From the NCBI GenBank assembly GCA_963971285.1, contig OZ020254.1:11904001-11968000 (forward strand): 64,000 bases of DNA, in the 5' to 3' direction. Numbering within the stretch: the first letter of the stretch is position 1; each line of letters starts with the position of its first letter. Of this stretch, positions 3,901 through 36,036 are shown piece by piece. Made by a program: the position numbers and the translations under genes. Source of the stretch: Astropecten irregularis. Lineage: Eukaryota; Echinodermata; Asteroidea; Paxillosida; Astropectinidae. Below the pieces are notes generated by a model. It saw only the letters and a list, made by a program, of their open reading frames with translations, was not told the DNA's origin and searched no databases.

Positions 3901-6900
3901 GTGCGTCTATCATGAAGATAACTGCTGCCGAGCAGACGCGCGAAATTGACCAATCAACATCCTCCGTCACGATCGTGACGGAGATGTTCTACAAATTTGC
4001 ACGCAGATAAATACAGCATTTCAGGCAGAAAAATGTTAACAGTATGTTTCTACCATCACCATCTTTATACCCTGTCTTTATACCAAAGTATGATAGTACC
4101 TTTATGCACATTCTGGTGCTTAAGCAGCTCTATTAAATTGTCCCGTGATCAGTTGGTTGTACATGTAACTTATTCCACTTCATCACTTGCAATTTGACTT
4201 TGATTCTTCTGTTCAGTCGATTAATTTCTTCTTCTTCTTCTGCTTCCTCCTTCTCTTCTCAGCTGTGTGTGATTCTGGAGCCTATGCAGGAATTGATGTC
4301 CCGTCACAAGGCCTACAACCTCAGTCCCAGGGACTGCCTCAAGGCGACCCTCTTCCAGAAATGGCAGCGAATGGTGGCACCTCCAGGTAGGGATGGAGGT
4401 TAAGAGAAGAGAGTTGCTATGTTTTTCCAACAGCCTCGCCTAAATAGCGCCCTCAAGTTGCAAAGAGCTACTGTAATATACCTTATTATACAGTGTAGTA
4501 ATGAACGAAATTGTTTCATGTTAAACCCTTACAGGTTTGCACTGTTGATATCAATATGTACATATAGCTGCCTCGAATGAATTGATTGAAAATTTGTCTT
4601 TGATAGATACATAGGCATATAGGGTGTTTACGAAACAGATGTTCAGGCTCACTCAGACTCGGCTTCCCTTTCACGAATCCATTCTAAAATAACAGGTATC
4701 AAAATAGAGGCTTTTGGTTGCGGTTTGGAAGTAGAATCTCTGGTTTGAAAAGGGAAACAGACTTTCAGCTTCAATGAAAAACCAGAACCTATATTTTCAG
4801 CATAGGATGACAGAGCCAGAGCCAGAGCCAGAGCCTGAGCCCGAGCATCCGTTTTGTAAACCCCCTTAGCTAGCCTTTAACAATGCCCCTGGACATCCAC
4901 TTGCATGTCCGTTGGCCTGAAGGATCTGACCTCATCCTCTCCCCTTATACATTCTTGCAACCCTCCTCCAGCTGAAACCAACAGAACACAGCCCAAACGT
5001 CGGAAGCGCAAATCCTCAACCAGCATACCGGCCGGGGGCGGCAACCTGTCCAACAACATCTCAGGGGGCGGGTCCAAGAAGAAATCGTCGCCGGGGAGCT
5101 ACACGATGTCCACGACGCCGGAAGGCGTACCCACAGTAAGTCAGGGCATCTTTGGTCTTGTACCTTTCTTTCACCTGACCCATCTCACTGTTAGAAACAG
5201 GTGCAGATTTTGGTAATTGATTGGATGGGAGGTCAACCATCTTCATTTCAAAGGTGTTTGAATAGACAGGCCCTTACTCTGTTGGGTTTTTTCCTCCTTG
5301 CTTTTACACTGAGCATTGGATTTGTGCAATTTGAAGCCGATTGAATTGCCTGTCCACAGCCACATTGAAGAGTTGCAGGCATGAGATTTCTCAGATTAAA
5401 ATCTGATTTCATGATTTTCTTTGTTTTGGATTTCAGATTTTTTTTTTCCTCGTTGACTTGGCTGTTCACAAAAGTATAGGAGATTTTCCAGATTTCAGAC
5501 TTTTTATATAAAGCTCCCTGTCAGCTGTTTTCAGACATTTTTATCATTGGTCAATCTCATCCCTGGAGTTGAATCTTATGGATCAGCTAAAAAGCGGTCA
5601 AAAAAGATCCTTTATTATGTTCAAGACATGTCCATGCACTCTACCATCCTCCAGTGAACACGCTTTTGCTACAAGGGGGCGCTTCAGTATGCACTGCGTG
5701 GATGCCAAAATGGCTTTGCCCGATTTTTTTTCAAATGAAAGGCCTTTGTAGGCAACCGGCCGTCAGCTGGTTTGGTTGGTTTTTCTCCTCAGGTGAACTT
5801 AACAATTGAAGCATGGCTCTATTAAAGTGTGTGGAATGGGCGAACCAGTAACCATGCCAAATGCCTCTTTGCATGGACTAACCAGCATGTCCAATATATG
5901 CTTGATCTATTAACCATTTTTTGCTCGGATTTAACTTTTCATGTACATGTATTTGTATTGATTTGTTTATTTATCTATTTTTGATTATTTTTATAAAAGA
6001 ATTATTACCCCACAACCCCTACCTCTTCCCCAAATTTATTCTTGTCAAATCTCATTTTCTGTTTTTTTGGCTTCCTGTTTCGTCGCGAGAGACAAGGAAT
6101 GTGTCGCTATTAGCTTCACTAGTAGATTCATTACACTAGACATCGATAGTATTTGGGCAATTCCAGCGTAACGGACATGACAATTACACAGTTTTTGCCT
6201 TATTCAGAGGATCATAAAGTAGGATTGGCAGTTTGCAAACAATTTTAATTAGGCTTATCAGACACATTTAACTATCAGTGACATATGTAGTAAATTTTAT
6301 GTAATTTCATTGAACAGTTGTAGAGAAAATGCACTTCTTGTGACCGTAACGGACATGACAACTTAGTGTCATGTCCGTTACGGTCACAAGAAGTGCATTT
6401 TCTCTACAACTGTTCAATGAAATTACATAAAATTTACTACATATGTCACTGATAGTTAAATGTGTCTGATAAGCCTAATTAAAATTGTTTGCAAACTGCC
6501 AATCCTACTTTATGATCCTCTGAATAAGGCAAAAACTGTGTAATTGTCATGTCCGTTACGCTGGAATTGCCCATTTGTAAGATGTTTCTGTTCAGGGTAC
6601 CCAAGTAGTATCTTGAGGTCAAAAAAACCCAAAAATAATAATAATAATATCTACTTATATAGCGCATAATAATAAAAGATTCTCTATGTGCTTTACATAT
6701 TATTATCCCTGGTCATCGGGCCATGATTTACATTCCTGAAACCATCTCAACTCCCTGGTTAGTATACAGCCCCGGCTACCGTAAGGTGCACAGAGGCTAA
6801 TCAAGCACACAAAGCCATCTCTAACCTCGCAGGTACCCATTTACACCTGGGTGAAGAGGAGCAATATGTGTTAAAGCGTCTTGCCCAAGGATGCAAGCAC

Positions 6901-9900: not shown

Positions 9901-11970
9901 TTGATGATGTTATGGTGTTTCTTGGCGCTGCTGCCTTTCCTGTGGCTTGCAAATTAGCTTTGGTTAAATTTATTTTCCACTTTGATATATGTTGTAGTTA
10001 ATTTTCCTTTGTGTCCCTTTTTCTCATTTTCGTTTTGCTAATGTATGATCAGTATTCAAACTTTTTCTCAAGCTGTTGATAGTCCGGTGTATTTTTTATT
10101 TTATTTTGGTGTTTGCATTTGATGATTGTACATGTTTTTTTTTTTATTGTTGTCTGTTTCGCACACTTAAAGGTAGTATCATACTTTGGTAAGAAACCAA
10201 AACAGAAATGTTCACAGATTTACGTTTTACTTTCAGGGAATGAAGATGGTGCTGGTATAAACCTACCGTTAACATTTTTCTGCCTGAAATGGTGTATTTA
10301 TCCAGAAATTAGTAAAACAACGACCGAAAATCTTTTTGATCTTTTAAAAGATGAAAAATAAAAGAGAAAAGACTTAAGAAATTCTGTGGCCGTTTTTCGC
10401 TGTTTTCTCAATAAGTGGGCACCGTATGGGGCTGAAACTTTCACAGATGACTGTTACTGTATCAGTCTTGATATTTTTGCCCATGAATCTGTATTTCTTT
10501 GAGAAAAAAACAAAGTATGATTTTACCTTTAAGAAGATTTGAATCAGGGATGACCAGTGCAGGATATTTCAGATTTTTTTGTTCAGCTGTCATGTCTCAT
10601 GTCCCACAGCGGATTGAGGGATGGTCAGTTTCACTGATAAATGAATTATATAATAATACGGTCAGTTGGTTACTTATCTGTTGACCTATTTTAGGGGCAA
10701 GATTTATTTCAGGTGTGCCTAGTATGGACTGATTCCACTTTAACCTTTTGGATTTTATTTTCTTTGCCTACCTGAAAAATTAATCAGCTAATTGAAATAA
10801 CACAGTTCTCTCACACTAGCAATAAACATATCCTTCCAGAAAACCCTTAAAAATATTAACAAAATTGAAAACAAAATAATAAGTATGAATAATCAATTTC
10901 TTAACTATGAAACCAATAATAATCAGGTTTTGATTGATGGTTTCACGGTTGAAATGCCAAAGAATCAAAACCATCAATTAAAAAGAAGAGGGGGAAAACA
11001 ACTTAACGTGAATGAATTGAAAGACGAGTTTGCCAAAACTTACAAATATACTGAGCCACAAAAGAAACGCAAACAATGCGTCCAATATATTGTCATTTAA
11101 GGCACTTTAGGTGTGCTGTGACATTCCATGTGAGCACTTTTTGGTTATGAAAACAAAAGCAATATTCAACATGCACAAGTCAGAAACTTTGTACCAAATG
11201 TTGTTGAATTCGATTAATTTAAACATCCGAAGTGAAATGTCAAAACATGACAATATAAAATTGAATGGGCCCACCGTTTGCATTTCGTTAGTGGCTCAGT
11301 TTATAAGGTCAAGTTAAAAAAAAATATGTTAAGCATCCTGCCTTTTATTCATTTATCCAAAACCATTTCCTCAGAAGAAAAACATAAATTTCCCCTTTTT
11401 TCAGGTAAAAAAAAAGAAAAGCAGGCGGTCTTCAAGAAGGAAGCACTGGCATGCAACTTTTCCTCGGATCAGCTGATTTCCTCCTTTTCACTAACTTTTA
11501 TGCCATCGAAAAATGAAAAACACTCTACAAAATATGGTGAAGTTTTTAATAAGAGTAGCCTACAGAGTGGGTTCTTCCCAAAAGAGTACATGGTGTAACA
11601 CCACAAATCTTATCCAATCTAGCAATCCCTACCACATATCCTCAAGTCTCATAATAGACCATTATGTCATTTGTCAAATTTGCTTTCTTATCTCCTCCTG
11701 GCACAGGACGTGATGGTGGTAGGCGAGCCCTCCCTGATGGGCGGAGAGTTCGGAGACGAGGACGAGAGGCTGATCACCCGGCTGGAGAACCAGCAGTTTG
11801 ACTCCAACAACGGCATGGACAACGAGGAGGAGTTTGAGCCCGGCGGCTCCAATGCCAAGCGGCCATCCTCATCCAGCGGACCTGCCTCCTGGGCTTCGGC
11901 CGACGTCAAACCCCCGCCGCCTGTCAGCCAGGGGCAGGACGAGAAAGCTGCCCCGTCAAATTCAAACTGA
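878..11970 (+). CDS. LDB1: LIM-domain-binding protein (LDB/CLIM/Chip family), 3' half of gene
   Basis: Nuclear adaptor that dimerises and bridges LIM-homeodomain and LIM-only factors (family knowledge). Five exons are visible: 878-967, 4263-4386, 4972-5135, 7798-7896 and 11707-11970. All join in frame across GT/AG junctions and give 246 residues up to the TGA at 11968. They encode the end of the dimerisation domain (EPMQELMSRHKAYNLSPRD, FQKWQRMVAPP), a basic nuclear localisation stretch (KRRKRKS), a Ser/Gly-rich linker, and the C-terminal LIM-interaction domain (DVMVVGEPSLMGGEFGDEDE, then RLITRLENQQFD). The order and most residues follow vertebrate LDB1/LDB2 as I know them. The 5' exons with most of the dimerisation domain lie before the window. 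LDB1 and LDB2 cannot be separated here, and an invertebrate would probably have one gene. Confidence 0.93.
2343..2590 (+). repeat. MITE-like repeat, 'GAGCCTGAGCC' family, copy 1
   Basis: About 240 bp with GGCTCAGGCTC-type sequence at one end and GAGCCTGAGCC at the other, around a conserved core (attgaagctgaagctctgtt; aaagcctctattttgatacc). Related copies are at 4619-4868 (inverted), 49766-49998 and 54795-54975. No protein is encoded. Confidence 0.7.
3398..3645 (+). repeat. TTAA-MITE group 1, truncated copy
   Basis: Shares the internal core of the intact copy at 10171-10528 (cagaaatcttcacagat, gtatttatccagaaa, gatctt..aagatcaaaaataa), but its terminal inverted repeats are gone. Intronic, non-coding. 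Confidence 0.65.
4006..4106 (-). repeat. TTAA-MITE group 1, short fragment
   Basis: An inverted fragment with the group-1 core (ataaatacagcatttcaggc) running into the terminal motif caaagtatgatagtaccttt. Internally deleted. Confidence 0.6.
4263..4386 (+). CDS. LDB1: LDB exon b (dimerisation domain end)
   Basis: Forty-one codons plus one base, preceded by a cttctt-rich tract and cag, with donor gtaggg. It encodes LCVILEPMQELMSRHKAYNL and then SPRDCLKATLFQKWQRMVAP, almost residue for residue the conserved LDB block. The split codon G|CT joins it to the next exon. Confidence 0.95.
4619..4868 (-). repeat. MITE-like repeat, 'GAGCCTGAGCC' family, copy 2
   Basis: Inverted relative to 2343-2590, with the same core in reverse complement (ggtatcaaaatagaggcttt) and both gtttacgaaac and gttttgtaaac ends. 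It contains a short (gccaga)n run near 4812. Confidence 0.7.
4972..5135 (+). CDS. LDB1: LDB exon c (NLS and Ser-rich linker)
   Basis: Starts mid-codon (G|CT, Ala) after cctcctccag and ends at phase 0 before gtaagt. It encodes the basic NLS PKRRKRKS and a Gly/Ser/Lys linker (SKKKSSPGSYTMSTTPEGVP) at the place where vertebrate LDB1 has KKKSPASTF. Confidence 0.93.
6155..6572. repeat. Perfect long palindrome: two 206-bp arms, 6-bp loop
   Basis: By base-by-base comparison the left arm (6155-6360) is the exact reverse complement of the right arm (6367-6572), separated by acttag. Each arm carries GTAACGGACATGACA near both its ends, so the motif occurs four times. ATTT flanks both outer edges (6151-6154 and 6573-6576), compatible with a short target-site duplication. 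No ORF is evident. It lies in an LDB intron and immediately precedes a SINE. Confidence 0.9.
6634..6992 (-). repeat. tRNA-derived SINE type A
   Basis: Read on the - strand, the head has an A-box-like GTGGCCGAGTGGTCT and a B-box GGTTCGAATCC, then a conserved body (cttgggcaagacgcttta) and an (ATT)n tail. Acceptor-stem pairing is absent, so it is a SINE and not a tRNA gene. Copies lie at 48961-49322 and 50497-50720. Confidence 0.85.
7798..7896 (+). CDS. LDB1: LDB candidate cassette exon, 33 codons
   Basis: Open frame of exactly 99 nt between a strong acceptor (long C/T tract ending cccttgtag) and a weaker donor (GAG|gtagct). Both boundaries are phase 0, matching the exons on either side, so inclusion or skipping keeps the frame. 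It encodes RNGPAGRHKSKRNRPSSPQP followed by VPMPPWIHESVSE, a basic then Pro-rich segment. The human LDB1 sequence as I know it has no such segment, so this is probably an alternative or lineage-specific exon. The call rests on splice sites and phase only. Confidence 0.55.
8153..8256. repeat. Short TIR element, 'GTGCATTCGTTTAGCT' family
   Basis: Inverted ends gtgcgctcgtttagcttcca and tggaagctaaacgaacacac flank about 65 bp containing gttgac/gtcaac. A second copy at 60463-60591 has the same ends. Confidence 0.6.
10171..10528 (+). repeat. TTAA-MITE group 1, complete copy
   Basis: The terminal inverted repeat AGGTAGTATCATACTTTGG opens the element, and its complement (caaagtatgattttacct) closes it. 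TTAA occurs directly outside both ends (10167-10170, 10529-10532), the target preference of piggyBac-type transposons. The interior holds a palindromic gatcttttaaaagat and no open frame. It is the reference copy for group 1. Confidence 0.85.
11707..11970 (+). CDS. LDB1: LDB terminal exon (LIM-interaction domain)
   Basis: Phase-0 start after ctcctggcacag and stop TGA at 11968-11970, 87 residues. It carries the LIM-interaction domain core DVMVVGEPSLMGGEFGDEDE and RLITRLENQQFDSNNGMD, then a low-complexity acidic, Ser and Pro tail. The tail length is close to that of human LDB1. The 3' UTR follows; I did not find an unambiguous polyadenylation signal. Confidence 0.96.
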   Translation, partial: DVMVVGEPSLMGGEFGDEDERLITRLENQQFDSNNGMDNEEEFEPGGSNAKRPSSSSGPASWASADVKPPPPVSQGQDEKAAPSNSN

Positions 11971-14200
11971 AAACCTCCCTGGATACAAATTTCAAAACAA
12001 AGCTTTCATTTTGTTTTTATTTGCCCCTCCCCCTGTTTATTTTTGGGGCAAGATTTATCATTTCATTATAGAAAAACTGTGTCCTGAAAGTATCCATGAT
12101 TTTCAGCCATGGTTTATCTTGTGCAAGCAAGCCCAGATATGGTTTGGTTGGAAAATAAGGCTGTGTCCGAAATCTCTGGCTGCGGCTACAAATTACACAC
12201 GCACCTATGGCAGCCACTAGCCAGTGACTGCAGCCATTTCCATAGACTTGTGTGTTATTTGCATGAGGTATTGGTACGTAGGGATGAACATCTCACTAGC
12301 AGATGTCGAAATTGGTTGTCTGTTTTGTTATCCATTTATTTATGTTGATACTTATGTTTATTCTGGGGCAGTTGGCTGAGTGTCTGTTCTATTCTGCTAA
12401 CTATGTCATACACCAATTGGTCAAGTTGTTTTGTTGATACCTTATGTTGCTGTATACATGTAGAAGTATCCACTCTTGTGGCCAGTGAATCTGCTCGTGG
12501 CCTGACTTTACCAACAAGGACCATGCTGTTGCCCCAGGAAATGCAAAAGCACATCTCCATCAAGGACTGATGCTACGCTTGGAGAAACGCTCAGCTGAGC
12601 TCTGACATCAAATTCACTGTCTTCATTGACACGGAGGGCAGATAATGGGCTCCGAGTTGCCTACAACCCTTCTACTCATCATCCAGCACGCTCACTGGTT
12701 GTTGAAGTATTTTGTTATGAAGATCAGGTTTCTAGATTTCCAATGCAATTTTATTTTTGTCTTCAGGGGAAGCAGACATCTTGAGCTGACCTCCATCTTG
12801 ACCGCTGTTGGTCAGTCGAGTTGGAGATTTTTTTTTAACAGACTCTGACCAAATCTTGAGTTTTTCAGGTGAACGTCGTTTACAATGCCAATGACAACAC
12901 TGCATGTTGCCATCAGATACTCGAAGAAGATCTGACATCTGGGTTTAATCGTTCCAAGCTGCTTTCCCGAGCCAAAGATCGACCTATGATGTCACCGATA
13001 TGCAAACTGTAGTCTCTTGATAGTCGGCCTTGATTGGCTATAGGTCCTTAGGGTGTGGTCATGCTGACCACTGTCTTCAACAAAGTCAGTCCCTGGTGTT
13101 ATGTTATCCCTAAGCAAGGTACTTTGCTGTAATCGTCGGTGTAATGGATAACAGGTGACTGTTAGCAGGGGCTCTTGCAGCCCGCAACTCCTAGCATTCT
13201 TTGCTGAAAGTTCGCCCTCAACTGTGTACGCACACTTTGGATATGATATTGAAACCAGCTTATTGTTAAGTCACTTTCTGACAGACGTACAAAACCTCTT
13301 GTCATCACAACAAAAATCAGCCGTGAAAACTGTCTGTTATAGGAGGACTCTGTTGTTCAGATCGGCCGTTCAAAAGTGAATGAAATAATGGCGGTCTAAT
13401 CTTGTTCCATCTGATGTATAGATTTATATATATTACTTGTTTTCTTTCGGGGGAAACTTCTGGCCCGTCAACAGAGGGCTCCATTCAAGTTTGATTTGTT
13501 GCTTTCTTTGCGCCCGTCGTTTTCTTTTCTATTATTTATTATGATATAGTCGATAGTTTATATGATATTATTAGGTTATTTCCTGAAATTGCCCGTGGTT
13601 TTTCTTTTTCTTCTAATAGTCTTTAGTTCGTGTTTTGTGTGATTTTGGGAAATTTCAGGACAGGTATAACACCAGAAAGAACCTCGGTTTATTTAAAAGG
13701 AAAAAAAGAGAGAGAATGCATGTTAAATGGTTTTTATTTATTTGTTTATTTAATGCTTCGTTACAAAATCACGAAAACGTTCACTTCATCGATTTGTCAA
13801 TTCCGTACCGCGCGACACGATCGTTCATGATATTTTGGGGTTTGTTGGTGGTGCATAATTTGACTTCACGTTCGTCTGTTGGATTATTTAAACCACGTGT
13901 GAAAATGTTTACAGTTATTTATGTCTTATTTTTCCTTGGAACGTTTACTGGACCGCTTGGGATCGCTATGATTATGTTCAGTCGAGACGCCCGATGGTGA
14001 TTTCAAAATGATGGAAGATTATGATTGTTGGAATTAATTTCGCAGAGCTGCCCCGACGGGAACCATAAAGACCCCCATGAAATTGTTTCTAGCCACCCGT
14101 ATTTGCAAAGCAAACAGCGGCTTGAACGAACTTGAAATTTTCAACAAAACAACCAGTTCTTCTCAGAACTACTCCCACCTCTTCCAATTAGAGTCAAGCA
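11971..14200 (+). other. LDB 3' UTR and 3' flank, no further gene seen
   Basis: About 2.2 kb after the LDB stop. The first part is presumably 3' UTR. The open frames here (for example 13635-14000) show no recognisable domain, no splice partners and T-rich composition. I see no RNA gene or complete transposon. Confidence 0.5.
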
Positions 14201-14444
14201 CAGTGTACACTGTCAACATTTTCAGTAACAATCTCGGTAACATGTTGCCCAGGTACCATGTTGCTGCAAATGTTGTCAGTGTACACAGAGCAAAACGAGT
14301 TGGGTAACATGTCGCAGCAACATCTCGGTAAGATGATTGCCAAATGTAGCTAGTGTACGCAGGGCCCAAAGTCGTTTTACCTAAGTGTGTAGGGCAATAC
14401 AGCGATTCATGAATATTAAATGATTTCTGGTCGGGAAATAGATA

Positions 14445-14600
14445 ATATGCAAATTAGGCTTGCCCTTCACCGACGTGCGTGAGCACTGCATGCTCAGTGC
14501 TTGTGAGAGCACGTGAACAAATCACATGCTGACTCAGGTGGAATTCGAAGTTTTCGAACCCACGACCTCCTGCTTACTAGTGCAGATTATTACCGAAAAT
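14445..14600 (-). repeat. tRNA-derived SINE type C, fragment
   Basis: Shares aaattaggcttgcccttcac and a reversed B box with flank (ttcgaacccacgacctcctg) with the fuller copy at 36037-36215. Present in all three duplication copies (also 17912-18050 and 19459-19615). Confidence 0.65.
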
Positions 14601-16860
14601 GTTGACATAGTGTACACTCTGCTCTATACCCATCGTAGACCTTCTCACTCCACTAATTAATAATTCGAGCGTTGTTGTTTCGTCACTGTGGCCGTTTTCG
14701 AGACCATAAAATTAAAACCGCAGCTTCCGAACCGTCCACCGGAGAGGCCCACCTTTGGTTGTTTTGGCCGACTCGTGGCGTTTAGGAACAACTTTGCCCG
14801 AACGAAGTCCCAATTTAACCAAGCTCTCTCTGCTAATGTTACTTTGGATAAATTCTTCGGTGGCCTGTATTACTTGACATTTGATTTCCTTGATTTTGAT
14901 TTTGTTGTCGTTTTCTAGTGTGTATCTTCTCGATAGTGGCTTCAATCATATTGATTCTGCGAAGCATTTACTATGGAATGAACCCACGCTCAGAGGAAAC
15001 ACTAAACAAAATAAAATGGAGACCAAAATCTAAAATGATAGTTTTCTTGTTTACTTCAAAGCAGGGTTTTTATTGTCTCACCCCTATTTACATTTGCTGT
15101 TGAAAGTTAATTATCATTATTATTATTATTTTTATTTACAAAGCTGACTGCATGTACATCGAGTGCTTTTTTGCACTCGTTACAAAAAGTTAAAGAAGAA
15201 ATTACTTCAAATAATAGTAATAATAAGTTAAGGAAAAAGGAGCGAGCAATTATATGGTACAAGTACTGCAATTGTCCGTTCTGATTCAAAACGGATAGTT
15301 ATAATAATAACCGGGGATGGGACCTTAGGGAGACATTCCCATAAGGTCGTGCACAAACTTTACTCGCTTGTTTCTAAACATTCTCCAAGTCAATGAACTT
15401 GAAATTAACATATGTTTATATTGAGGGCATTCTCTGTTTTCTGTTCAAATATGGACCGCAAAAATATGTCTTTAAAGGGTAGCTGGTACCTTAGGGAGAC
15501 ACCGAAAAGTCCCGATGACTCCTAAATGTCCACTTTTGGAAAGCTAACGTGTCTTTCTAATACCCTATTTGTAATTGTAAGGCTCCTTGCAGTTCTCTCT
15601 CGCAGAAAAATCATAAGAAAATCAATCATTTTGACCAAACACGATAGCAGTCCGTCCAACACGCTGCTGGACCGTCAGGTTAAAGTGGGATCAGTGAAAA
15701 TGTCGGTCCATTTCTAGTCCCGATGATTGTTCGTTTGTGGTCGTTTGTATGTCTATTTGTTTCAATGACAGGTATAATTTCCAAGCGTTCGAATACAACA
15801 TTGTTAAATATCGTGGTTGGCCTCAGCAACATTGTATATATCTCATAACTATTATAACTTATAAGGTTTTTTTTTTCGTTTGAAGTAGTGTGTTTCGTAT
15901 TTATATTCGATTGGATTCATGTACCTTTTTGTTGGAGCGGTTAAATACCGTAGCCGACCATCGCCTCTCTTCTACATACACTGTATACATTATACAGTTA
16001 ATATACATGGCAAAGCATTAATTTGTACGGAAAACAATTTTTTTGGCATGTTATAAATAGGAGGATCTCTTTGTTATAAATCTTAAACCAAAAAAAAAAG
16101 GATAAAGAAAAAATCAACAAAAAGAATGAAGAATTCGTAAATAAAATAAAAATTAATATGGAATAAGGACATTTCCCGTGTTTTGAGTCTTTTTTTCTTT
16201 GGTTTTGTATTTCTTGTTTTAAGAGAAAAATTACTCGATTAAAAAAAAAAATAGGGGCCTCAAATTCGTTTAAAAAATGGCGCTCAAATAAAATTGAAAC
16301 ATAATTCTGATATTTTTTAACATTATAAAACGTGCAGCTTATTTTCAAGCTTTCAGCCAGTACATTGTACTGGTGCGGTAGCGGTAAACACATCATCCAT
16401 TAATGTACACTTATTTACACTTTGGATTTACATACTTTTTTTTCATTATTATACCAATTTCTCGAGTTTGTATTAAGGGAGGTAGGCCTATCGAAATGCG
16501 CGCCTAAATCACTCTTTGTGACCTTCACAAAAAAATGGCAATTTACAATCTACTCATTAAATATCACAAGTACACATACCTATAGAATATTACTACTATC
16601 TTAAAAAAAAGGCCTTCAATGGTCTCGCTTATAATACGTTTATATTCTTTTGGTTTGGAAAGACAAAACATAGGTTATACATTACGTAACCTATTTAGTA
16701 GGTTGCTTAAAGGGAGTACATATAGGATTTGCAAGGCCTCCAAAAAAAATTATTGAGTTTGAGACAGAAGACTCTACAGTTCGTAAACTGTGCAAACAGT
16801 CACCATGGGAAATCTTGGTTCATCAGATGCTCGGTTTTTCAAGGATATCAAGATTTAGTG
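14445..16860. repeat. Segmental duplication copy A (2416 bp)
   Basis: By eye, identical to 19459-21874 at a constant offset of 5014 bp. Eight open frames along its length translate identically in the two copies. A type C SINE lies at its left end. The rest is AT-rich with no recognisable gene. Diverged homology continues to about 16905. Confidence 0.92.
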
Positions 16861-16925
16861 TTTTATTTTCAAAGATCGTTCGTCCGACAATTTTTTGGAA
16901 CAAACGCACACCCTTACTTGTCTTA

Positions 16926-17678
16926 ATGTGGGATATAATTACCTGGCTCAGTTGGAAGGTCTATATCAGGGAAGTCAAACTCCGGACTGTCTCTGGACAT
17001 ATCGGTGACGTCCTCGGCGGAGCCTCGCCTCCCTTTGCCGCCTTTGGACAATCCCGTCGCCACCGGGATCAGCTTGGTTACCCACGGGTTCGGGTTGACA
17101 TTAGCCGGCTGCCACACCAGCGTCACCCGGGCGATGGGAGGCAGCGACTCCAGTTTCGGATAGAAGAAGGAGTTGGCCGGATGGTTGGGGAACTTGGACG
17201 TGATCTGCGTGATGCGCTCCTGCGGGGTGGTGACGTAGTCCGGGGAGGTGAAGGAGAAACCGCCGTCCGTGCCAGCGTCCCACGGCTGGAGGTTGAAATG
17301 GAGGGGCTCCTTGCGCCAGGAGCCCCCCTCGCACAGGTCAAGATTGCTCAGTCCCACGAACCAATCCGGGCTTGGGATGATGCGAGCAGCAAAGGAAATC
17401 TGCAATGGAGATAATGCGGTGCACGGATTAGAGGTAGGCCAGTGACATACATTACAATGGCATTCGTTACATGTAGGGCATGTCGGGCATTAGTTAGGGC
17501 ACGTCATGTGGGGCATGTATTACATGTTGGGACGTATCATCAACTGTTGAATGCATTACATAACATTGCATTACATTTATTAAGATGAAAAACTCGGGCA
17601 AAAAACGTTGACCCACCATCGTGTGGTCTCTTTGCACGAAGACAGAGGCCACCGATCTCCCCGTCCCCGAGCTCAAAG
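16926..17678 (-). pseudogene. SPON2: Truncated duplicate of spondin-2 exons (exon 4 complete, exon 3 partial)
   Basis: Near-identical copy of the gene segment at 24141-24895. The duplicated Spondin_N exon (16943-17399, 457 nt) keeps its length, acceptor and donor, and differs from the functional exon by one residue (Lys for Gln in ITSKFPNHP). The exon above it survives only as 17617-17678 (62 of 215 nt), where it breaks into repeat DNA. No thrombospondin exon or start exon accompanies it, so it cannot make a spondin-2 protein on its own. It lies 3' of the functional gene on the same strand. The near identity implies recent duplication, gene conversion or a mis-assembly. Confidence 0.85.
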
Positions 17679-19460
17679 GTAACAATCTTGGTAACATGTT
17701 GCCCAGGTAGGCATATACCTTGTTGCTGAAAATGTTGACAGTGTACACAGAGCTAAACGAGTTGGGTAACATGTCGCAGCAACATCTCGGTAAGATGATG
17801 GCCAAATGTTGCTAGTGTACACAGGGCCCAAAGTCGTTTTACCTAAGTGTGTAGGGCAATACAGCGATTCATGAATATTAAATGATTTTTTGGTCGGGAA
17901 ATAGATAATATGCAAATTAGGCTTGCCCTTCACCGACGTGCATGAGCACTGCATACTCAGTGCTTGTGAGAGCAAGTGAACAAATCAAACGCTGGCTCAG
18001 GTGGGATTCGAACCCACGACCTCCTGCTTACCTGTGCAGATTGTTACCGAAAATATTGACAGTGTAGGGCCTACGCTTTGCTTTATACCCATCGTAGACC
18101 TTCTCAATGATCGTTTTAACAGACTCCACTAATTAATCATTCGAGCGTTGTTGTTTCGTCTGTGGCCGTTTTCGAGACCACGAAACTAAACATCAGCCTC
18201 AGGGTTTTTATTGTCTCACCCCTATTTACATTTGCTGTTGAAAGTTTATTATTATTATTATTATCATTTTTATTTACAAAGCTGACTGCATGTACATCGG
18301 GTGCTTTTTTTTGCACTCGTTACAAAAAGTTAAAGAAGGGATTACTTCAAATAATAGTAATAATAAGTTAAGGAAAAAAGGAGCGAGCAATTATATGGTA
18401 CAAGTACTGCAATTGTCCGTTCTGATTCAGAACGGTAGTTATAATAATAATAACCGAGGATGGGACCTTAGGGAGACATTCCCATAAGGTCGTGCACAAA
18501 CTTTACTCGCTTGTTTCGAAACATTCTCCAAACCAATGAACTTGAAATTGACATATGTTCATATTGGGAGCATTATCTGTTTTCTATTAAAATATGAACT
18601 GTTAAAATGTTTTTAAAAGGTAGCTGATACCTTAGGGGGACATCGAAAAGTCTCCCTAAGTCCCGATGTCTCCCAAATGTCCACTTTTGGAGGCTAACGT
18701 GTCTTTCTAATACCCTATTTGTAATTGTAAGGCTCCTTGCAGTTCTCTCTCGCAGATAAATCATAAGAAAACCAATCATTTTGACCAAACACGATAGCAG
18801 TCCGTCCAACACGCTGCTGGACCGTCAGGTTAAAGTGGGATCAGTGAAAATGTCGGTCCATTTCTAGTCCCGATGATTGTTCGTTTGTGGTCGTTTGTAT
18901 GTCTATTTGTTTCAAGGACAGGTATAATTTCCAAGCGTTCGAATTCAACATTGTTAAATATCGTGGTTGGCCTCAGCAACATTGTATATAATCTCATAAC
19001 TATTATAACTAATAAGGTTTTTTTTCTTCGTTTGAAGTAGTGTGTTTCGTATTTATATTCGATTGGATTCATGTACCTTTTTGTTGGAGCGGTTAAATAC
19101 CGTAGCCGACCATCGCCTCTCTTCTACAAACACTGTTTACATTATACAGTTAATATACATGGCAAAGCATTAATTTGTACGGAAAACAATTTTTTGGCAT
19201 GTTATAAATAGGAGGATCTCTTTGTTATAAATCTTAAACCAAAAAAAGGATAAAGAAAAAAATCAACAAAAAGACTGAAGAATTCGTAAATAAAATAAAA
19301 ATTAATATGGAATAAGGACATTTCCCGTGTTTTGAGTCTTTTTTTCTTTGGTTTTGTATTTCTTGTTTTAAGAGAAAAATTACTCGATTAAAAAAAAAAA
19401 TAGGGGCCTCAAATTCGTTTAAAAAATGGCGCTCAAATAAAATTGAAACATAATTCTGAT
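17679..19460. repeat. Segmental duplication copy B (diverged, internally shorter)
   Basis: Matches copy A from about 14225 to 16313 with scattered substitutions and small indels. It lacks about 350 bp that A and C have (14712-15063 in A). Its left end joins the broken spondin exon. Its right end joins copy C at a shared atat, suggesting a microhomology junction. Confidence 0.85.
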
Positions 19461-21874
19461 ATGCAAATTAGGCTTGCCCTTCACCGACGTGCGTGAGCAC
19501 TGCATGCTCAGTGCTTGTGAGAGCACGTGAACAAATCACATGCTGACTCAGGTGGAATTCGAAGTTTTCGAACCCACGACCTCCTGCTTACTAGTGCAGA
19601 TTATTACCGAAAATGTTGACATAGTGTACACTCTGCTCTATACCCATCGTAGACCTTCTCACTCCACTAATTAATAATTCGAGCGTTGTTGTTTCGTCAC
19701 TGTGGCCGTTTTCGAGACCATAAAATTAAAACCGCAGCTTCCGAACCGTCCACCGGAGAGGCCCACCTTTGGTTGTTTTGGCCGACTCGTGGCGTTTAGG
19801 AACAACTTTGCCCGAACGAAGTCCCAATTTAACCAAGCTCTCTCTGCTAATGTTACTTTGGATAAATTCTTCGGTGGCCTGTATTACTTGACATTTGATT
19901 TCCTTGATTTTGATTTTGTTGTCGTTTTCTAGTGTGTATCTTCTCGATAGTGGCTTCAATCATATTGATTCTGCGAAGCATTTACTATGGAATGAACCCA
20001 CGCTCAGAGGAAACACTAAACAAAATAAAATGGAGACCAAAATCTAAAATGATAGTTTTCTTGTTTACTTCAAAGCAGGGTTTTTATTGTCTCACCCCTA
20101 TTTACATTTGCTGTTGAAAGTTAATTATCATTATTATTATTATTTTTATTTACAAAGCTGACTGCATGTACATCGAGTGCTTTTTTGCACTCGTTACAAA
20201 AAGTTAAAGAAGAAATTACTTCAAATAATAGTAATAATAAGTTAAGGAAAAAGGAGCGAGCAATTATATGGTACAAGTACTGCAATTGTCCGTTCTGATT
20301 CAAAACGGATAGTTATAATAATAACCGGGGATGGGACCTTAGGGAGACATTCCCATAAGGTCGTGCACAAACTTTACTCGCTTGTTTCTAAACATTCTCC
20401 AAGTCAATGAACTTGAAATTAACATATGTTTATATTGAGGGCATTCTCTGTTTTCTGTTCAAATATGGACCGCAAAAATATGTCTTTAAAGGGTAGCTGG
20501 TACCTTAGGGAGACACCGAAAAGTCCCGATGACTCCTAAATGTCCACTTTTGGAAAGCTAACGTGTCTTTCTAATACCCTATTTGTAATTGTAAGGCTCC
20601 TTGCAGTTCTCTCTCGCAGAAAAATCATAAGAAAATCAATCATTTTGACCAAACACGATAGCAGTCCGTCCAACACGCTGCTGGACCGTCAGGTTAAAGT
20701 GGGATCAGTGAAAATGTCGGTCCATTTCTAGTCCCGATGATTGTTCGTTTGTGGTCGTTTGTATGTCTATTTGTTTCAATGACAGGTATAATTTCCAAGC
20801 GTTCGAATACAACATTGTTAAATATCGTGGTTGGCCTCAGCAACATTGTATATATCTCATAACTATTATAACTTATAAGGTTTTTTTTTTCGTTTGAAGT
20901 AGTGTGTTTCGTATTTATATTCGATTGGATTCATGTACCTTTTTGTTGGAGCGGTTAAATACCGTAGCCGACCATCGCCTCTCTTCTACATACACTGTAT
21001 ACATTATACAGTTAATATACATGGCAAAGCATTAATTTGTACGGAAAACAATTTTTTTGGCATGTTATAAATAGGAGGATCTCTTTGTTATAAATCTTAA
21101 ACCAAAAAAAAAAGGATAAAGAAAAAATCAACAAAAAGAATGAAGAATTCGTAAATAAAATAAAAATTAATATGGAATAAGGACATTTCCCGTGTTTTGA
21201 GTCTTTTTTTCTTTGGTTTTGTATTTCTTGTTTTAAGAGAAAAATTACTCGATTAAAAAAAAAAATAGGGGCCTCAAATTCGTTTAAAAAATGGCGCTCA
21301 AATAAAATTGAAACATAATTCTGATATTTTTTAACATTATAAAACGTGCAGCTTATTTTCAAGCTTTCAGCCAGTACATTGTACTGGTGCGGTAGCGGTA
21401 AACACATCATCCATTAATGTACACTTATTTACACTTTGGATTTACATACTTTTTTTTCATTATTATACCAATTTCTCGAGTTTGTATTAAGGGAGGTAGG
21501 CCTATCGAAATGCGCGCCTAAATCACTCTTTGTGACCTTCACAAAAAAATGGCAATTTACAATCTACTCATTAAATATCACAAGTACACATACCTATAGA
21601 ATATTACTACTATCTTAAAAAAAAGGCCTTCAATGGTCTCGCTTATAATACGTTTATATTCTTTTGGTTTGGAAAGACAAAACATAGGTTATACATTACG
21701 TAACCTATTTAGTAGGTTGCTTAAAGGGAGTACATATAGGATTTGCAAGGCCTCCAAAAAAAATTATTGAGTTTGAGACAGAAGACTCTACAGTTCGTAA
21801 ACTGTGCAAACAGTCACCATGGGAAATCTTGGTTCATCAGATGCTCGGTTTTTCAAGGATATCAAGATTTAGTG
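19459..21874. repeat. Segmental duplication copy C (2416 bp, identical to A)
   Basis: Same sequence as 14445-16860 as far as can be read. After 21874 it continues as a diverged match to copy A to about 21917, then enters unique DNA before the last spondin-2 exon. Confidence 0.92.
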
Positions 21875-21968
21875 CTTTTTTTTCTTCAAAAGATCGTTCG
21901 TCCGACAATTTTTGGAACCATAAAGAACAACCCGACTTGAGTTGTTTTACATATCCCCTTTCACTCAA

Positions 21969-22258
21969 GGTATGAAGATGGTGCTGGTAGAAACATAATG
22001 TTGAAATATTTCCACCTGAAATGCTGTATTTATCCAGGAATTAGTAAAACAAAGACCGAAAACGGTTTTGATCTCGGGTTAAGATCAAAACCATTCTTTA
22101 TGTTTCATAAGAAAAATTGAGTCGGGTTTTCGCTATTTTCTCGTGACTCAGATGTCCGATTGAGCTCAACATTTCATAGGTTTATTATTTCATGTTCATG
22201 TTTGATCAGACAAAGTATGAGTGCTGTCATGTGACCTTTACCAATCATATATTGGAAG
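21969..22258 (+). repeat. TTAA-MITE group 2, end-truncated copy
   Basis: Internal core of group 2 (gatctcgggttaagatcaaa, gatgtccgattgagctcaac) as in 32664-33016, but without clear TTAA-flanked ends. It abuts the right edge of duplication copy C. Confidence 0.65.
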
Positions 22259-23502: not shown

Positions 23503-23792
23503 TTAGACGATGAACCTGTTGCGCTTCTTTTTACCCATGTAGTTCCGTCGCTGGATCTTCATGTACCGTTTGGTCTCCTTCTTGATGACGCCCTTCAGGC
23601 ATCTCTTCTGCGGTCTCGTGACCGTCTCCTGGCATTTCTCGATGCCGATCAGGTTGGGGCAGTCTTGGCCGCCGTTCTTGGGCGGCTGCACGACGATTCG
23701 GAACCGCCTCCGGACTCCCACCTTGCACTTGGTGTCGCAGGGGCTCCAGGACCCCCATGGCGTGACTTCGCAATCGTACGGTATCACGATTT
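23503..23792 (-). CDS. SPON2: Spondin-2 exon 5: TSP1 repeat and basic tail
   Basis: Starts at split codon G|AA after caacag and ends at a TAA (complement of 23503-23505). It encodes [18 protein letters not shown], a TSP1 repeat with six cysteines and a WxxW tryptophan pair of the type that is often C-mannosylated. The last 30 residues are strongly basic ([18 protein letters not shown]), which could aid glycosaminoglycan binding (inference). Confidence 0.93.
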
Positions 23793-26700
23793 CTGTTGGA
23801 AGGTGGGGAAACAAAACGGGACCAAATTGAGACAATGATTCCGACTGGACTTCAGAAATAATCCGAGGGGAGAAATGGCATGAGTCGGGAGGAAAAGGTG
23901 GCCTACTTTAAGAGAGGAATGTGTGAACTAATGATAGGGACATGATTCAAACAACGATGCACTGTCAAGTATCGGGATACATTGGTGGCTGTGCCTGGCT
24001 CTTTTGGCGAATATGAATGATGGACGAAAGGAAGTGCAGGAGGGAGGCATGTTTGCCGGTCAGAGAGGAGACTACAGACCCTGTGCAAATACAAAGAGGA
24101 GGTGGCGTCTTGAAATAGGACGCTAAACAGACACACAGGGATGTGGAATATAATTACCTGGCTCAGTTGGAAGGTCGATATCAGGGAAGTCAAACTCCGG
24201 ACTGTCTCTGGACATATCGGTGACGTCCTCGGCAGAGCCTCGCCTCCCTTTGCCGCCTTTGGACAAACCCGTCGCGACCGGGATCAGCTTTGTCACCCAC
24301 GGGTTGGGGTTGACATTGGCCGGCTGCCACACCAACGTCACCCGGGCGATGGGAGGCAGCGACTCCAGTTTCGGATAGAAGAACGAGTTGGCCGGATGGT
24401 TGGGGAACTGGGACGTGATCTGCGTGATGCGCTCCTGCGGGGTGGTGACGTAGTCCGGGGAGGTGAAGGAGAAGCCACCGTCCGTGCCGGCGTCCCACGG
24501 CTGGAGGTTGAAATGGAGGGGCTCCTTGCGCCAGGAGCCCCCCTCGCACAGGTCAAGATTGCTCAGTCCCACGAACCAATCCGGGCTTGGGATGATGCGA
24601 GCAGCAAAGGAAATCTGCAATGGAGATAATGCGGTGCACGGATTAGATGTAGGCCAGTGACATACATTACAATGGCATTTGTTACATGTAGGGCCTGTCG
24701 GGCATTAGTTAGGGCACGTCATGTGGGGCATGTATTACATGTTGGGACGTATCATCAACTGTTTAATGCATTACATTACATTGCATTACATTTATTAAGA
24801 TGAAAAACTCGGGCAAAAAACGTTGACCCACCATCGTGTGGTCTCTTTGCACGAAGACAGAGGCCACCGATCTCCCCGTACCCGAGCTCAAAGACTTGGC
24901 CGCAAAGACGGGTCCATTCGGTAGCTGGACCATCTCCCGTTGAAGCACCTTGCCCGACGGGTCCTCCCCCTCGATGAAGTCTTTGAAGGGATCAGTGGCC
25001 AGCTGGTCCGGCTGCCACATGCTGTAGCGATCGTTGTGGGAAAGTCCTGTTTCAAAAAGACAAAAAGAAACAGCGCACCTTTTTGTTAGATCGAGGATTC
25101 AATTTTGTCAGCAGGTGCGCAGATGATGACGTCCGATCGAACTTTGGGCGGTTGGCTAGCTAGCTGGAGAACACGTGTTCTACGCGATCTGTTCGGGATT
25201 AATTTCCCCGTTCACCTGCCATCTTTGAATAAACATTTCCGGGAGGGCACCAGCAGCCTGAAGACCCTTAACTGGAAAAAATAATAGGGTTGTTCCCCTT
25301 GATGCCTCCGGTCTCGAACATTTTAGCTGCCACGCTGTGGGTCCAGCAATCATCTGTTGCCAACGTGCGGCATAGAGACACCATGTTGCGGTAGGTACCG
25401 GTAGAGAGTGCATTTTCTGGGTCATGGACAAATTGCAGCCGTAAATGTAATCAAATATGATTGACCTAGAATTGCAGAGAGATGGTGAGGCTTTGAGGAG
25501 GTGTCTGGATTAGCTGGATTTGGCTTAAGTGTACACCTTTTGGTTATGGTAGGAGCCTATGGCGGCCCCAGAGACTATGGATCCACATGTGCAGGACTCT
25601 CAGAGGTGGCAGCGTGCAGACTTGGCTAACGCACATGACAATGTCATACGGCTATGGCTTGAAATTGCACACAAGCCTTCGGTAAGCCTCTGTAGCAACT
25701 TACCATAGACACGTGTACCATTAATAAGCCCCAAGCAGGTAATCCGGACGCGGACTTTCTATGCAACTGATGAATGTGTTTGCTGCCACCAAGAGTTTGA
25801 TTCTCCTGATTTGTATCTATGGGCTATTGCCCGGCTGTTGTGCCCTACTTTTGATTTGGTTTCACCTTACCGTCTACCTTACACTTTCTAAAACCAGTGC
25901 CAAATAACATATGCTAAATGAATAAAAAGGCTTTTGTAATTTTGGGGCACAATGCCTCATTGAAAATAATGAGTCGCACAAAATTAAGGAGCATAGCTGT
26001 AAAAACAAGGAAGATGACCTTCGAACGAAGCAGGGGGATGTTGAAGATTCGTTCGCATGTGAAATTGTCTGGAGTCTTCACAGACATGTTTGTTCAAAAT
26101 CTTATGTCCGTCTGACTCTCTTTTTAACAAGCTGATGACCGGGGTATCCATTTCATTGTTTCTGCCGAGGAATGACAGATGCTAACAAACGCCTTAATAG
26201 GCTCGTGTTTTGAGAGCCCGAATTAAACGGAAAAAATGGTTGTGCTGATTAATTTTATGGAGTTTCGGGAGGTGTTTTTGTAAGGTCTACTGTCTGTGCT
26301 AATCGCTCAACGGGACTCTAAGAGCAGCGGACACCGAAACTTCCCCCGCAAGCTAAGGGGTTAATAGTGTTTGACTACGTGAGAAACTTTGGCAACTTCA
26401 TTGTCTTTGTTTGAAAAAGGGAAGCAAAAGGCGCGGAGAAAAAAAATGAGATGGGCCCCCTGACCGGCCGGAAAATCTCCAGGGGAACTTTGATATTTCT
26501 CCCGGTCGCCGTTCTCATTGGATAGGGGCTGAGAGTGGGTTAAGTAAGCCCCTAGGCTGTCGCCAAGGGACCTGGTCAAAGTTTTGACAGGGGTATCGCT
26601 AAACAAAGAGTTTGTTTTAAGATGAAATGGATACAGGAGTCCGCAAGCCCGAAGATGGGCCCGCGTGATTTGGTTTCATCTCTCTTTGGTCCGGGACGCA

Positions 26701-29700
26701 GCAGTGCAGTCATCGGTGCGAGGCCCAGCCGAGGCCCGGCCGGTTTTCCACCGACTGCGAAGTCTCCCGGCGCGCGCCAGGACGGCACGACATGATCAAA
26801 TTAGGGTAGAACAACACGGCGATTCTCTGAGCGCTCCGCCGACAATTAACAGCGTTGGCCGGCCTGCCGGGACCGAGTGTCGCGTCGCCCGTGACCTACG
26901 CCCCGAACAGGCCCGGGCTGTACTTTGCGAAGGGCACCGCGCGACATGCCCATCCCGAGCCGGTGTTCCCTTGCAAATTCGCCAAATCAGCCGGCATGGT
27001 TGGCCTTATCTACGACAAGCTGGTTTAGGTAATAGCCCCACACACCGTCGGCAACCAGCCGTGCCTTTATAATGGCAGCTGATTTCACAGGCCGTCTTGG
27101 TATATGGTTTGGGGTATCATTCCAGTCAAGATCTCCCTTCATTTTATACAAGTCTATCGGAGAGACGCTAAGTCTGGTGCGGGCCTGGGCCTAACCCTGC
27201 CTTAGGCTGTCTTGAAATGTCGGCAGTGCATCGTCCCGTGTAAAGATGCCCTCTTGTGACTCCCCCTCACCATAAAAGCAAAATGCCAACATAACCTACG
27301 GGCAACCATTGGCCGAGGATGAACCTTATATGTGGACTCTGATGAAGATCTAACGGCAAACAGATTCTGACAAGGTCTTTGATACTTGAATCAGTCGATG
27401 AGGTGAAACATCTCAAGCACGACACAGAAATCTCGATTTATTGTGATGCTATGTTTTCTTTCCTCCATGATAAAAACCAAAGGGAATTTGTACAAGCGAA
27501 ATATACGTTATGCATTCAGTAACTCTTTCCGTGAGCTTTCTCACGGTGCATTAATGGGGAAAGAGATGAAGAAGAGTTGCAAGGGGTGTCAGAGGTGGGC
27601 TAGCTAGTCTCTCTGAATTTGCGTTGAGAACAATCACCGCTAGCTTCCGTTTAAGCTGTTTCAACGCTTAACTCGAATACACCTAATGGATTAATGAAAA
27701 TCACACTCCAATGCCGCTGGGAAAACGCCCTCTACGGCTTATGCACTTGGCTGATGACAGTTCATCCCTGGGATTTGCTGAGTAAGGAGAAATTGAGACA
27801 CAGTGAAGAAACTCTCAGCGATGTGTTAAGCTTGTAGGCTTTAAGTCTAATAATTTCTTGGTTTGGGATTTTCTTGTATGGCTTGGATTCTGTTGTAGTT
27901 TGCTAAGAATAAACATAGACCTGTTGGGTCGTTGACTGCGCTCGCATGGCAACCAGGTTTGATCTAGCAGGGACACTTTTGTGCTGATTGCAGCAACTTT
28001 TTTGGCACTTGAGCCGTCCAATGAAAGTAGTTTGTAGCTAAAAGGCAACGGGGGCCGATTTCACCAAACTCATCGTAACTTACTTTCAATCGCTGGACTT
28101 AATCATGTGCATTGCAGCCATACGTAGGATACGATGGGGCCGTCGTTATTTAAGTTACGATCGATCGTAGGGCTTCGTAAAATCGATTTCAGGGGTCGAT
28201 TTCACCAAACTCATCGTAATTTACTATCAATCGCAGGACTTGATATAGTGTATTGCAGCCATACGTAGGATACGATTGATTACCCGTCGTAACTCGAGTT
28301 ACGATCGATCGTAAGGCTTGGTGAACTTCGAGCCCTGATCTTTAAGTACACAATGATCGAACTGTCTTTTCCCACCCTCCTTCCCACCCGCCCCTCGCCA
28401 CTACATGCGACTTCGAATTACATCGGGGTCAAGAGGTCACGCCAGTACCAGGCAAGCCTGGGAAACACGACCTCTGTGGGAATCAACTTCAGTAGTAGCC
28501 TTGAACATGGACAGAGTTTGGTCTTGGGATTCAAAGTCCAAGGCTATACGTCGAAACTCCTTTATACGCGGGTTCCAAGAATATGACGTTATAATTATAC
28601 CATCAATAATTAGGAAAACATAAATAGCCAGCATTCATTGATGAAGACAGAAGAAAATTAAAACAGGAAAAAGAGTTGTGAGTAAAAAAAAGTTACACGA
28701 TCGAGTAGACTGAATGTGTCTAGATGGGCAGCTAGCCAAGAAGTGCATTAATTCACACAGCGGGTACCCTAAACGGTTCCGAGCGAATCCTAGCGGGCTA
28801 ACAGACCCTATCCGGGGCGGCTGGGACCAGACCAGACGGGACCCTGATCTGGAGCGCACATGGAGTCCCCGTGATTCCTAATGCCAAGCCGAGCGAATTC
28901 GAAGGAAAGAAAAAAAATGTGTTAAGTATTAATTTGGCAGCAATCCGTTGGGTACATTTTCGGCGTATGATCTAGACATGACCCAATACGTCACGACTCG
29001 CGTCTGATTATTCAAAGTGAAAAGGGACCACCGGTTAGAACACCGTGGTTAAAAACAACAGACGTCAACTCTTGGCGTAAATGATTTAAGTGGTACTGAC
29101 ATGCACAGCTAATAAAGATTGAGAGAGAAAATAAAATGTTACTCTCCATGCGCCCTTCTTAATGGAACCGAACAGGGCCTGGCTCGTGAGTTCTCACCAA
29201 GTTGTGGGTCATGTATTATGTGTCGGGTTTAGGCTGATGATGGAGGATGCAGCCCTACATCAGTCGAGTTCGACTAGTTTTGCTTGGGCTAGGAGGCCAA
29301 TTTCATATAGCTTCGTAAGCACATCATTTGCCTAAGCATGAAAAGTCTAGTGTGCTCTAGTCGTCCTCAGGAGGACGACTGAGGACGACTAGAGCACACT
29401 AGTCGAAACGTCGAGAAACGTCGAGAATCCACTCTCATCGGTCCTTTTCAGGACCACACATCTTCCTAAAAGCATAGAGCTAGGAACAGCTCTATGCTAA
29501 AAGAGTACTACATGGTGTCACCGCAAGCCTTTTTCTTACTTACTTAGCCTCTTACCTTACAATATCAAAAGTCTTCCTCCATCAAACAGAATTACCAACC
29601 AAATGTTCATGTGATGTTTACTGCTTTTAACTTGTATATTCGGTCATTTGTTTACTGAGCATAATATTCACAAGGAGTTTTGGCTGGTGTACTGATTTCA

Positions 29701-32700
29701 TTTACCAAGTTTTTTGTTGTGCTTAAGCAGATTTTGGTGCCTAAGCAGCTCCATGAAATTGCCCCAGCTAAAGACAATGTTTGATCTGACATCACAAACA
29801 TTGAGTTCTTACTAGCCTAGCCTGTCTGGCAGTTTATTTGGAGACAATTATTTGGATTGACTGACAAAATGAGGCGCCATACACCGGTGGATACATGTAG
29901 TTCTTTTGGATAGCTCATTTGATAAAGTAATGATATTTCAATTTTAAATTTGTTAGACTAATTTTGTGAAACTGAGCCATGTTAGGTAAGGCTGAATTGG
30001 TTCCTAGTATATACCAATAAACAAACAGTGTAATATCTAATTCAACATGTACAATGTTTCTCAAGATATGTAGCTTACTACCTCAACAAACATGTATGTT
30101 ATCATGATCAACAAACCCTGAATAAGACAACGTATTAAAATGACATAAACGATCGCAGTAAAGCATCTTGCTCAAGGACATAATGCATCATGATCAAGTT
30201 GAGGGCCTTCAATCAAGAGGAAAGTATGCCCAGTACAGATAAAAGGGGATCCATTTTGCTTAACCAAACTTTCTGTGTGTGATAGATAAAAATGGCGGGA
30301 AGTTTGAATGGTATTGCTGGGCACGTGGTAAATACATGTATAAAACATTACGTCATAGTATATTTAGATCCGGGTAAGCCCAGCGGCGAAATAAAGAAAA
30401 CTCGTTTGTGTAATACATGACTCATTTAATCTAGAATTAATGTTGGAGAATTTGGGGTTGGAAATGGCAACTTTCTGTGGTGATACTTCACGGTGACTCA
30501 CCTATTAGTGTGGACCACTGTGCGTTCTTGCGGTACTTTGGGTAGCTTTTGGGGAAAGCCCTCTCGCTCCAGAGTCCCTGGAATTCCAGGCGGTAATGCG
30601 CCCTCTCCTCGCCGCTACACGACGCCTCAGCCAGGCCCAAGAAGCTCCCAACAACCAGAAGCAAGCTCAGCACTTGCACTCGACATTTCTGGGCCATCCT
30701 GTTTGGGAAAAGGAGGGAAATGTTGGTGGTTTGTCTTACAAAACTAAGTTTGAACTGGCAAAAGGGCTGTTCTCTGATGTGGTTAGAGTCGAAAGAGGCG
30801 ACAGTGCTCAGCCTCACTTACTAAATACCACGTACGGGACCTATCCATAGCCTAGACTCTGAGTCTGATTCATGTAGGCCAATCCTAAGCCATTGTATAT
30901 TAAGTGACCTCTGATCGCACATGCATGGATCTATTTTCTTCAACTCGAAGAATGAAATGATAAAAGATAAGATCATAAACGTTAGTGTGGACTAAATGTA
31001 TACAGCTTACAGGATTGGTAACATACCCAAACAGAAAATGTTCACAGATGTTCATGTACATGCTGGATAGAGTCAGACAAAATATGTGTGCTGCGATGTG
31101 ACCGTTACCAATCATGTATTATACCTTTAAGGAAGTTAACTCGTGCTTTCATTGTGCGCTACCAATGTGAGATTAAACGATTTTAAATTCTCGCGCATTT
31201 ACTCCTTAGGCCCCTAATGAAGAGGGTACTAAAATGACAAAAATTGAGCCAAGAAGTTAGTCCATCGAAATGAAAAAAGGAGGTACCAAGTCAAAGCATG
31301 GAAGTGGAAATGCACAACTGCCTTCGATTAAAGGTGTCAACAAAAGAGAACATGGCTGCTGTATGACTTGTAATTCTGTCAGCGTGTTAAAATGACACCC
31401 GGCGTGTGGCAGGCAGAGTAAAGTGTAGTATAGTATAGTGCATGACAATAATAACTCAATTTAATCGAAGCTGGAGGGTGTTATACGTCATCAGGGACTC
31501 AAGTGTAAATTGTCCGGCCCACCGCCATGCAGGTTAACCGCAAACCGACATCCAACCCTAGTTCAGGGATTTGAAATCACGGAATTCGCACACAAAATGC
31601 ATATTCTATGACATGCAAAGGTGGCTGGAATTGTAAGTCATACCATTATTGTTTACGTCATAATGTGTATATACGGTGTTGACATTAGGTTGTTTTACAG
31701 TCTGTGTCATTATAAGCGACTTGAGATAGAGACTAGCGACGCGTGTGTGGATTTTTTTAAATATGGCACAGAGCCACAGACGTCATTCTTTGACTGCACG
31801 TTTAATTGATGCTAACCAGGAATTACAGCTGACATTTAGAGGTGAAGGGATTTCCCACTATACAGTTGCTGGCTTCAGTTCATCTCAACCCTCTTCCCTC
31901 TAGTCATTGCAATGCCTAAAGACCACGTCATCCCTACAAGCATCGTATGACTTGGCTCAATAGTGCATTAGTCTAGTACAGGGTTGTCTTAAAGGTATTA
32001 TCATACTTTGGTAAGACACCTAAACAGAAATGTTCACAGATTTACGTATAACTTACAGAGTATAAAGATGGTGGTGGTAGAAACATACCGTTAAAATGTT
32101 TCCGTCTGAAATGGTGTATTTATCCAGTTATTCTTATTTTTCAGTTATTATGTGGTTTATTCCATCCAGAAATTAGTTAAACAACGACCGAAGATCTTTT
32201 TTATCTTTTAAAAGATCAAAAATAACAGAGAAAAGACTTAAGAAATACCTAGGCAGTTTTTCACTGTTTTCTCAAAAAGTGGGCACCGTATGGGCCTGAA
32301 TTTTTCACAGATGACTGTTGCTGTATTTGTTTTGATATGTTTGCCCATGAATCTATATTTCTTTGATAAAAACCAAAGTATGATACTACCTTTAAACTGT
32401 GTCACACAGACATTCATTTTCACACCACAGAAGAAGAAATTAGAAAGAAAGAAAAAAGAACGAGTTCACAGACACCCCGGGTGATGCAAAACCGTTCTGG
32501 GTTAATCAAGGGTCCCATTCCTTTGGTCTGTGCTCGCCTTGTGGTCCTTCTAGAGGACTTGTCGTACATTCAGGATTTTGGAAATGCAATTGGCACCACG
32601 CGTGCTTTAGGCTTAACTCTATCACTGCCGTCCCGAAACTTCACCTACCATTGACAATATTAAAGGTACAGTACAGGATTGGTAACATACCCCAACAGAA

Positions 32701-35637: not shown

Positions 35638-36036
35638 AGTGGATTAGTTTGGGGTACGGGTGAGCCTAAATGAAACAAGCGCAAACTGTTCGCTGTAACC
35701 CTTCCTATAGTTGCAACTCTCAGAAACGGTTGTATGTAAACTGACAGAACAGGAAGGCACTGGGATCAGAATTGGCAGACTGATATGAGATGAAGGGATT
35801 CTGGAGTTGGCAAATAAGGGGGAGGAGTTGAATATGGGTTAAATGGGGGTCAGACTAGAATGTGGTGGGCTTGTCTTGACACAAAGCAAACAATAATTGG
35901 CATCATCACTTAACCCAGACATCTATCTCTAAATATGTGAACATATTGATGGTCCAATGGACAGAATGGAGATGCTCTTGGATAATCTATAATTATTCGA
36001 ACCAAACTCTCATAAATATTTTGGTCGGCAGATACA

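Follow-up and report, generated by a model that had tools for sequence, protein, structure and literature searches.

A probable template-switch duplication with a copied spondin-2-like exon in Astropecten irregularis

Introduction

We describe a non-coding region, hereafter E, that is present three times within 64,000 nucleotides of Astropecten irregularis DNA (positions 11,904,001 to 11,968,000 of contig OZ020254.1; hereafter the window), and that is accompanied by a second, partial copy of a neighbouring spondin-2-like gene. From the arrangement of the copies and the sequence of their junctions, we propose that one complex tandem duplication arose at the locus very recently, by replicative template switching of the FoSTeS/MMBIR type, a reading to which we assign a probability of about 0.55. 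The broader proposition, that the duplication is real and complex whichever source supplied its templates, can be held a little more firmly. The window is animal DNA; as expected from this, no match was found when the spondin exon and a 30-base sequence of E were looked for in viral contigs.

Genomic context

The duplicated region lies between two genes. On its left is a LIM-domain-binding (LDB) gene, recognized by its LID domain (11623-11970, E 1.2e-12). On the other side is a resident spondin-2-like (mindin-like) gene on the minus strand (23503-30817), detected by profile matches of Spond_N pieces and a TSP1 exon, and the duplicated region is downstream of it. The signal and the start of Spond_N fall within 30488-30817, exon 2 within 24763-25098, exon 3 within 24158-24615 and the TSP1 exon, with its TSP1_spondin match, within 23503-23838, all on the minus strand. 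The three Spond_N pieces jointly span profile positions 1-194, and exon 3 matches the solved Spondin-2 with an E value of 7.7e-39. The resident gene is apparently intact.

Two further features of the window were noted. At 6154-6573 there is a 420-bp near-perfect palindrome (99.3% self-complementary, with almost no spacer), which has the motif GTAACGGACATGACA in common between its ends and its centre and resembles a fold-back element or a paired MITE. At 48508-48591, a GC-rich minisatellite (15-bp unit, 5.5 copies) lies in a 217-aa minus-strand open frame.

Two identical outer copies and a diverged middle copy

The outer copies of E, A (14445-16860) and B (19459-21874), agree at 2416 of 2416 bases when aligned within the window, which bears out the earlier note's statement that no difference could be found between them; the exact match also ends, on both sides, just where that note had placed it. 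Chance is excluded as the source of this repeat. Absolute identity over this length sets a 95% upper bound of 0.12% on A/B divergence since copying, or at most ~105,000 generations if the amphioxus mutation rate (5.89e-9) is taken as a yardstick.

The flanks are one-sided: only A is continuous with the left flank, and only B with the right. The first 220 bp of E (14225-14444), which the A/M alignment shows to be common to A and the middle copy M and which run into the left flank, are absent from B. At the other end, homology between A and B continues for ~45 bp past the identical tract, to 16901 and 21918, respectively. Every A/B difference is confined to this right end of A (16861-16901): 16861 T/C, 16865 A/T and several small indels, mostly in homopolymers. 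Under even divergence, such clustering in the last 45 bp before a junction has a probability of about 2e-9. Error-prone synthesis beside a template switch could account for this excess, as could a few dozen bases taken from another haplotype, and either fits the proposed mechanism. A third possible cause is poor sequence at a contig end, which would favour reading the locus as an artefact.

Copy M (17679-19458) is of a different character. It aligns with A at 1732 positions, of which 85 are substituted (4.9%), lacks ~345 bp (A positions ~14717-15061) and is truncated at A-position 16309-16313, with no counterpart to A past 16313, so that the right 590 bp of E are missing. A diverged middle copy with a deletion of about 350 bp had likewise been reported from inspection of the letters, and the base-by-base alignment of the three copies that had been proposed as a check agrees with it. 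The divergence of M is patchy: it reaches ~9-13% at A-positions 14525-14725 and 15275-15575, and the last 183 bp of M do not differ from A at all.

Repeats of other kinds occur in and around E. A tRNA-derived SINE-like repeat is found at 14417-14549, 17885-18031 and 36013-36165 (85-87% alike), and B starts inside such an element. Rfam matches were of tRNA type only, and both Rfam and ARAGORN called a tRNA in the copy at 36 kb. A dispersed family of ~300-370 bp, 79-87% alike and present in both orientations (21965-22253, 32660-33020, 38285-38653 and 61116-61480), has one member that begins ~47 bp beyond the right end of B.

A fragment of the spondin-2-like gene between the copies

The "broken host exons" of the earlier note proved to be a fragment of the spondin-2-like gene (16926-17678, minus strand; Spond_N E 2e-34). 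Outside the set of E copies, no direct repeat in the window is longer. Its 753 bp align without gaps to the resident counterpart at 24141-24893 (minus strand), with 21 differences (97.2% identity). The counterpart takes in exon 3 together with an intron and the last part of exon 2; correspondingly, the fragment has 17 bp of intron 3, a complete exon 3 flanked by its two splice sites, the intron separating that exon from exon 2, and finally ~57 bp of exon 2 itself, which is cut off mid-exon.

The classes of substitution in the fragment carry much of the argument. In exon 3, 13 of the 14 differences from the resident gene are synonymous and the remaining one changes Q to K; the sole difference in exon 2 (24880, GGT/GGG), read from the aligned codon, is synonymous too. 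The probability that a random change would be synonymous, computed from the exon's own codons, is 0.24-0.29, and under neutrality 13 of 14 would be expected with P = 9e-8 to 9e-7. This bias indicates that both exon sequences diverged while they coded for a working protein. The fragment would then have moved to its present site after that divergence, and recently. Judged from the non-synonymous changes, neutral divergence since relocation is at most ~1.2%, far below the 4.9% between M and A, which argues that the exon copy and M were not joined at this site throughout the divergence of M. Had they been joined, many amino-acid changes would be expected, and exon 3 has only one.

Synonymous divergence in exon 3 is ~11% (13 in ~120 sites), higher than in the adjacent intron (5 in ~222; Fisher p 0.0014); the ratio of the two is about four. 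The exon 3 differences are concentrated at 24177-24489, corresponding to 16962-17274 in the fragment. A simple allelic origin does not predict an exon more diverged at synonymous sites than its intron. CpG mutability was considered as the cause and is a partial explanation at best: CpG is touched by 7 of the 14 exon 3 differences and by 8 of all 21. The donor of the fragment may have been a mosaic allele or a paralogue.

Junctions without long homology

None of the three junctions has long homology; microhomology or filler is all that is seen. Junction J1, from A to the exon fragment (16902-16925), contains ~24 bp of filler without a convincing source in the window, and a comparison with the right flank of B and the rest of the window returned no significant candidate (p 0.38). 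At J2, from the exon fragment to M (17678/17679), 2 bp (AG) are common to both sides if A's version of E is used; M itself has GG, and the true microhomology may be 1-2 bp. J3, from M to B (19455-19462), has a 4-bp microhomology, ATAT. Every piece is in the same orientation and is drawn from within ~11 kb.

The J2 breakpoint falls at 14225/14226, inside the left arm of a MITE-like hairpin-forming inverted repeat (14198-14291; 33-nt arms, 28 nt apart). The 93-nt hairpin has a predicted DNA fold of -23.9 kcal/mol (z -4.96). Hairpins stall replication. These 33-nt arms were the only inverted repeats found near a boundary, and they bracket neither E nor the fragment. A transposon origin of E, or transposon-borne capture of the gene fragment, is not supported, there being no terminal repeats around E or around the fragment.

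A proposed order of events

We propose that rightward synthesis passed through intergenic E, yielding copy A, and left it near 16901. A forward switch of the replication machinery would next have brought in 753 bp of the spondin-2-like gene, and a backward switch into the hairpin on the left side of E would have started the copying of a diverged version of E (M). At the common ATAT, synthesis would have switched from M to 14445 of the original E, traversed E a second time (copy B) and gone on into the right flank. The predicted product is a duplication with a 5014-bp period and two long templated insertions, the exon and M, at its junction.

The exon and M were probably templated by the other haplotype. 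We favour this source because both show allele-like divergence (2.8% and 4.9%) and because the exon changes were still filtered by selection; amphioxus heterozygosity, 3.2-4.2% (PMC12862219), served for comparison only. The most specific version of this proposal, in which one germline event of switching between homologues left one chromosome with its own sequence twice (A and B) around an allele-derived exon and M, is tentative.

The identity of A and B and the count of non-synonymous changes are two clocks that both point to a recent date, and one event is the simplest way to satisfy them, although two closely spaced events fit as well. Very recent duplication, one of three possibilities raised by the earlier note, thus gains from the absence of any A/B difference across 2416 bp, the one-sided flanks and the near absence of non-synonymous change in the exon copy. 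Joined haplotypes, another of the three, fails for A and B, which are identical, and survives in altered form: M and the exon copy may derive from the other haplotype, whether by template switching or by an assembly chimera. Against the duplication model it counts that the differences at the end of A need an extra assumption, that the J1 filler lacks a source and that exon 3 is more diverged at synonymous sites than the adjacent intron.

Alternative explanations

The strongest rival is an assembly chimera, which we consider unlikely. Here the true chromosome would carry a single E, and M and the exon fragment, both from the other haplotype, would have been inserted in the contig path with E written twice. 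Assemblies of heterozygous genomes often contain false heterotype and homotype duplications (PMC9516828), and our locus is like such duplications in having adjacent copies, one with allele-like divergence. Exact identity of A and B combined with such divergence in M and the exon copy speaks for this explanation, and the homopolymer differences at the end of A look like those of a low-quality contig end. However, an assembly gap separating the paired copies is given as a mark of false duplications (PMC9516828), whereas the window has no N. The junctions are of microhomology type, and their overlap of only 2-4 bp is too little for an overlap-based join. Moreover, the exon fragment begins 17 bp into an intron, stops mid-exon and lies in an order relative to E that differs from the resident locus.

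An improbable alternative is that A, the exon fragment, M and B form an old tandem array whose outer members, A and B, were recently equalised by gene conversion, the third of the earlier possibilities. The 4.9% divergence of M from A would suit such an age, and the identical tract stops 40-45 bp short of the end of homology, as a conversion tract could. Yet such a tract would need to start precisely with the first base of B and span 2.4 kb, and the fragment shows none of the pseudogene decay appropriate to an old array.

Slightly less probable again is that the donor of the fragment was not an allele but a functional spondin-2 paralogue at another site in the genome, the remainder being a recent duplication: the ~11% synonymous divergence of exon 3 is high by allelic standards, but an intron only ~2-3% diverged and free of indels would be unlikely in a paralogue with that much synonymous divergence. 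Finally, the identity of A and B rejects the idea that these two copies represent two haplotypes.

Comparison with known rearrangements

The proposed template-switch duplication has close parallels. Long templated insertions (376, 815 and 13,357 bp) with 0-6 bp of microhomology are a signature of iterative template switching (PMC5120786). As in the chromoanasynthesis-type FoSTeS/MMBIR cases of that study, we observe a gain in copy number in the window sequence (E three times, the spondin exon twice), several segments of one locus fused in a single piece with 0-4 bp of microhomology, one junction with a short insertion left unexplained, and templated insertions that range from hundreds to thousands of bases, here including 753 bp from a nearby locus. 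Unlike those cases, which are de novo events in pedigrees, ours is read from one reference sequence, all of its segments are direct and its templates resemble the other haplotype.

Switching between homologous chromosomes is also documented (PMC6480824). Human DUP-TRP/INV-DUP rearrangements resemble our locus in that one rearranged chromosome holds segments of two allelic genotypes (PMC6480824); in contrast, there is no inversion in Astropecten, the scale is of kilobases and the haplotype origin is suggested by divergence only. The kind of rearrangement is thus already known, and we most likely have an ordinary, unusually legible template-switch duplication.

Should the locus be an artefact, gene annotation here would have to guard against calling an additional, spurious spondin exon. 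If real, it would be a fresh, base-resolved template-switch duplication in the genome of a wild animal, in which the synonymous changes of the copied exon act as a clock for the event. It would also illustrate how exon fragments whose splice sites are preserved can end up close to the gene they were copied from. Where an animal's heterozygosity is high, events between homologues could, if this is true, be read off a reference directly, each segment being marked by its haplotype.
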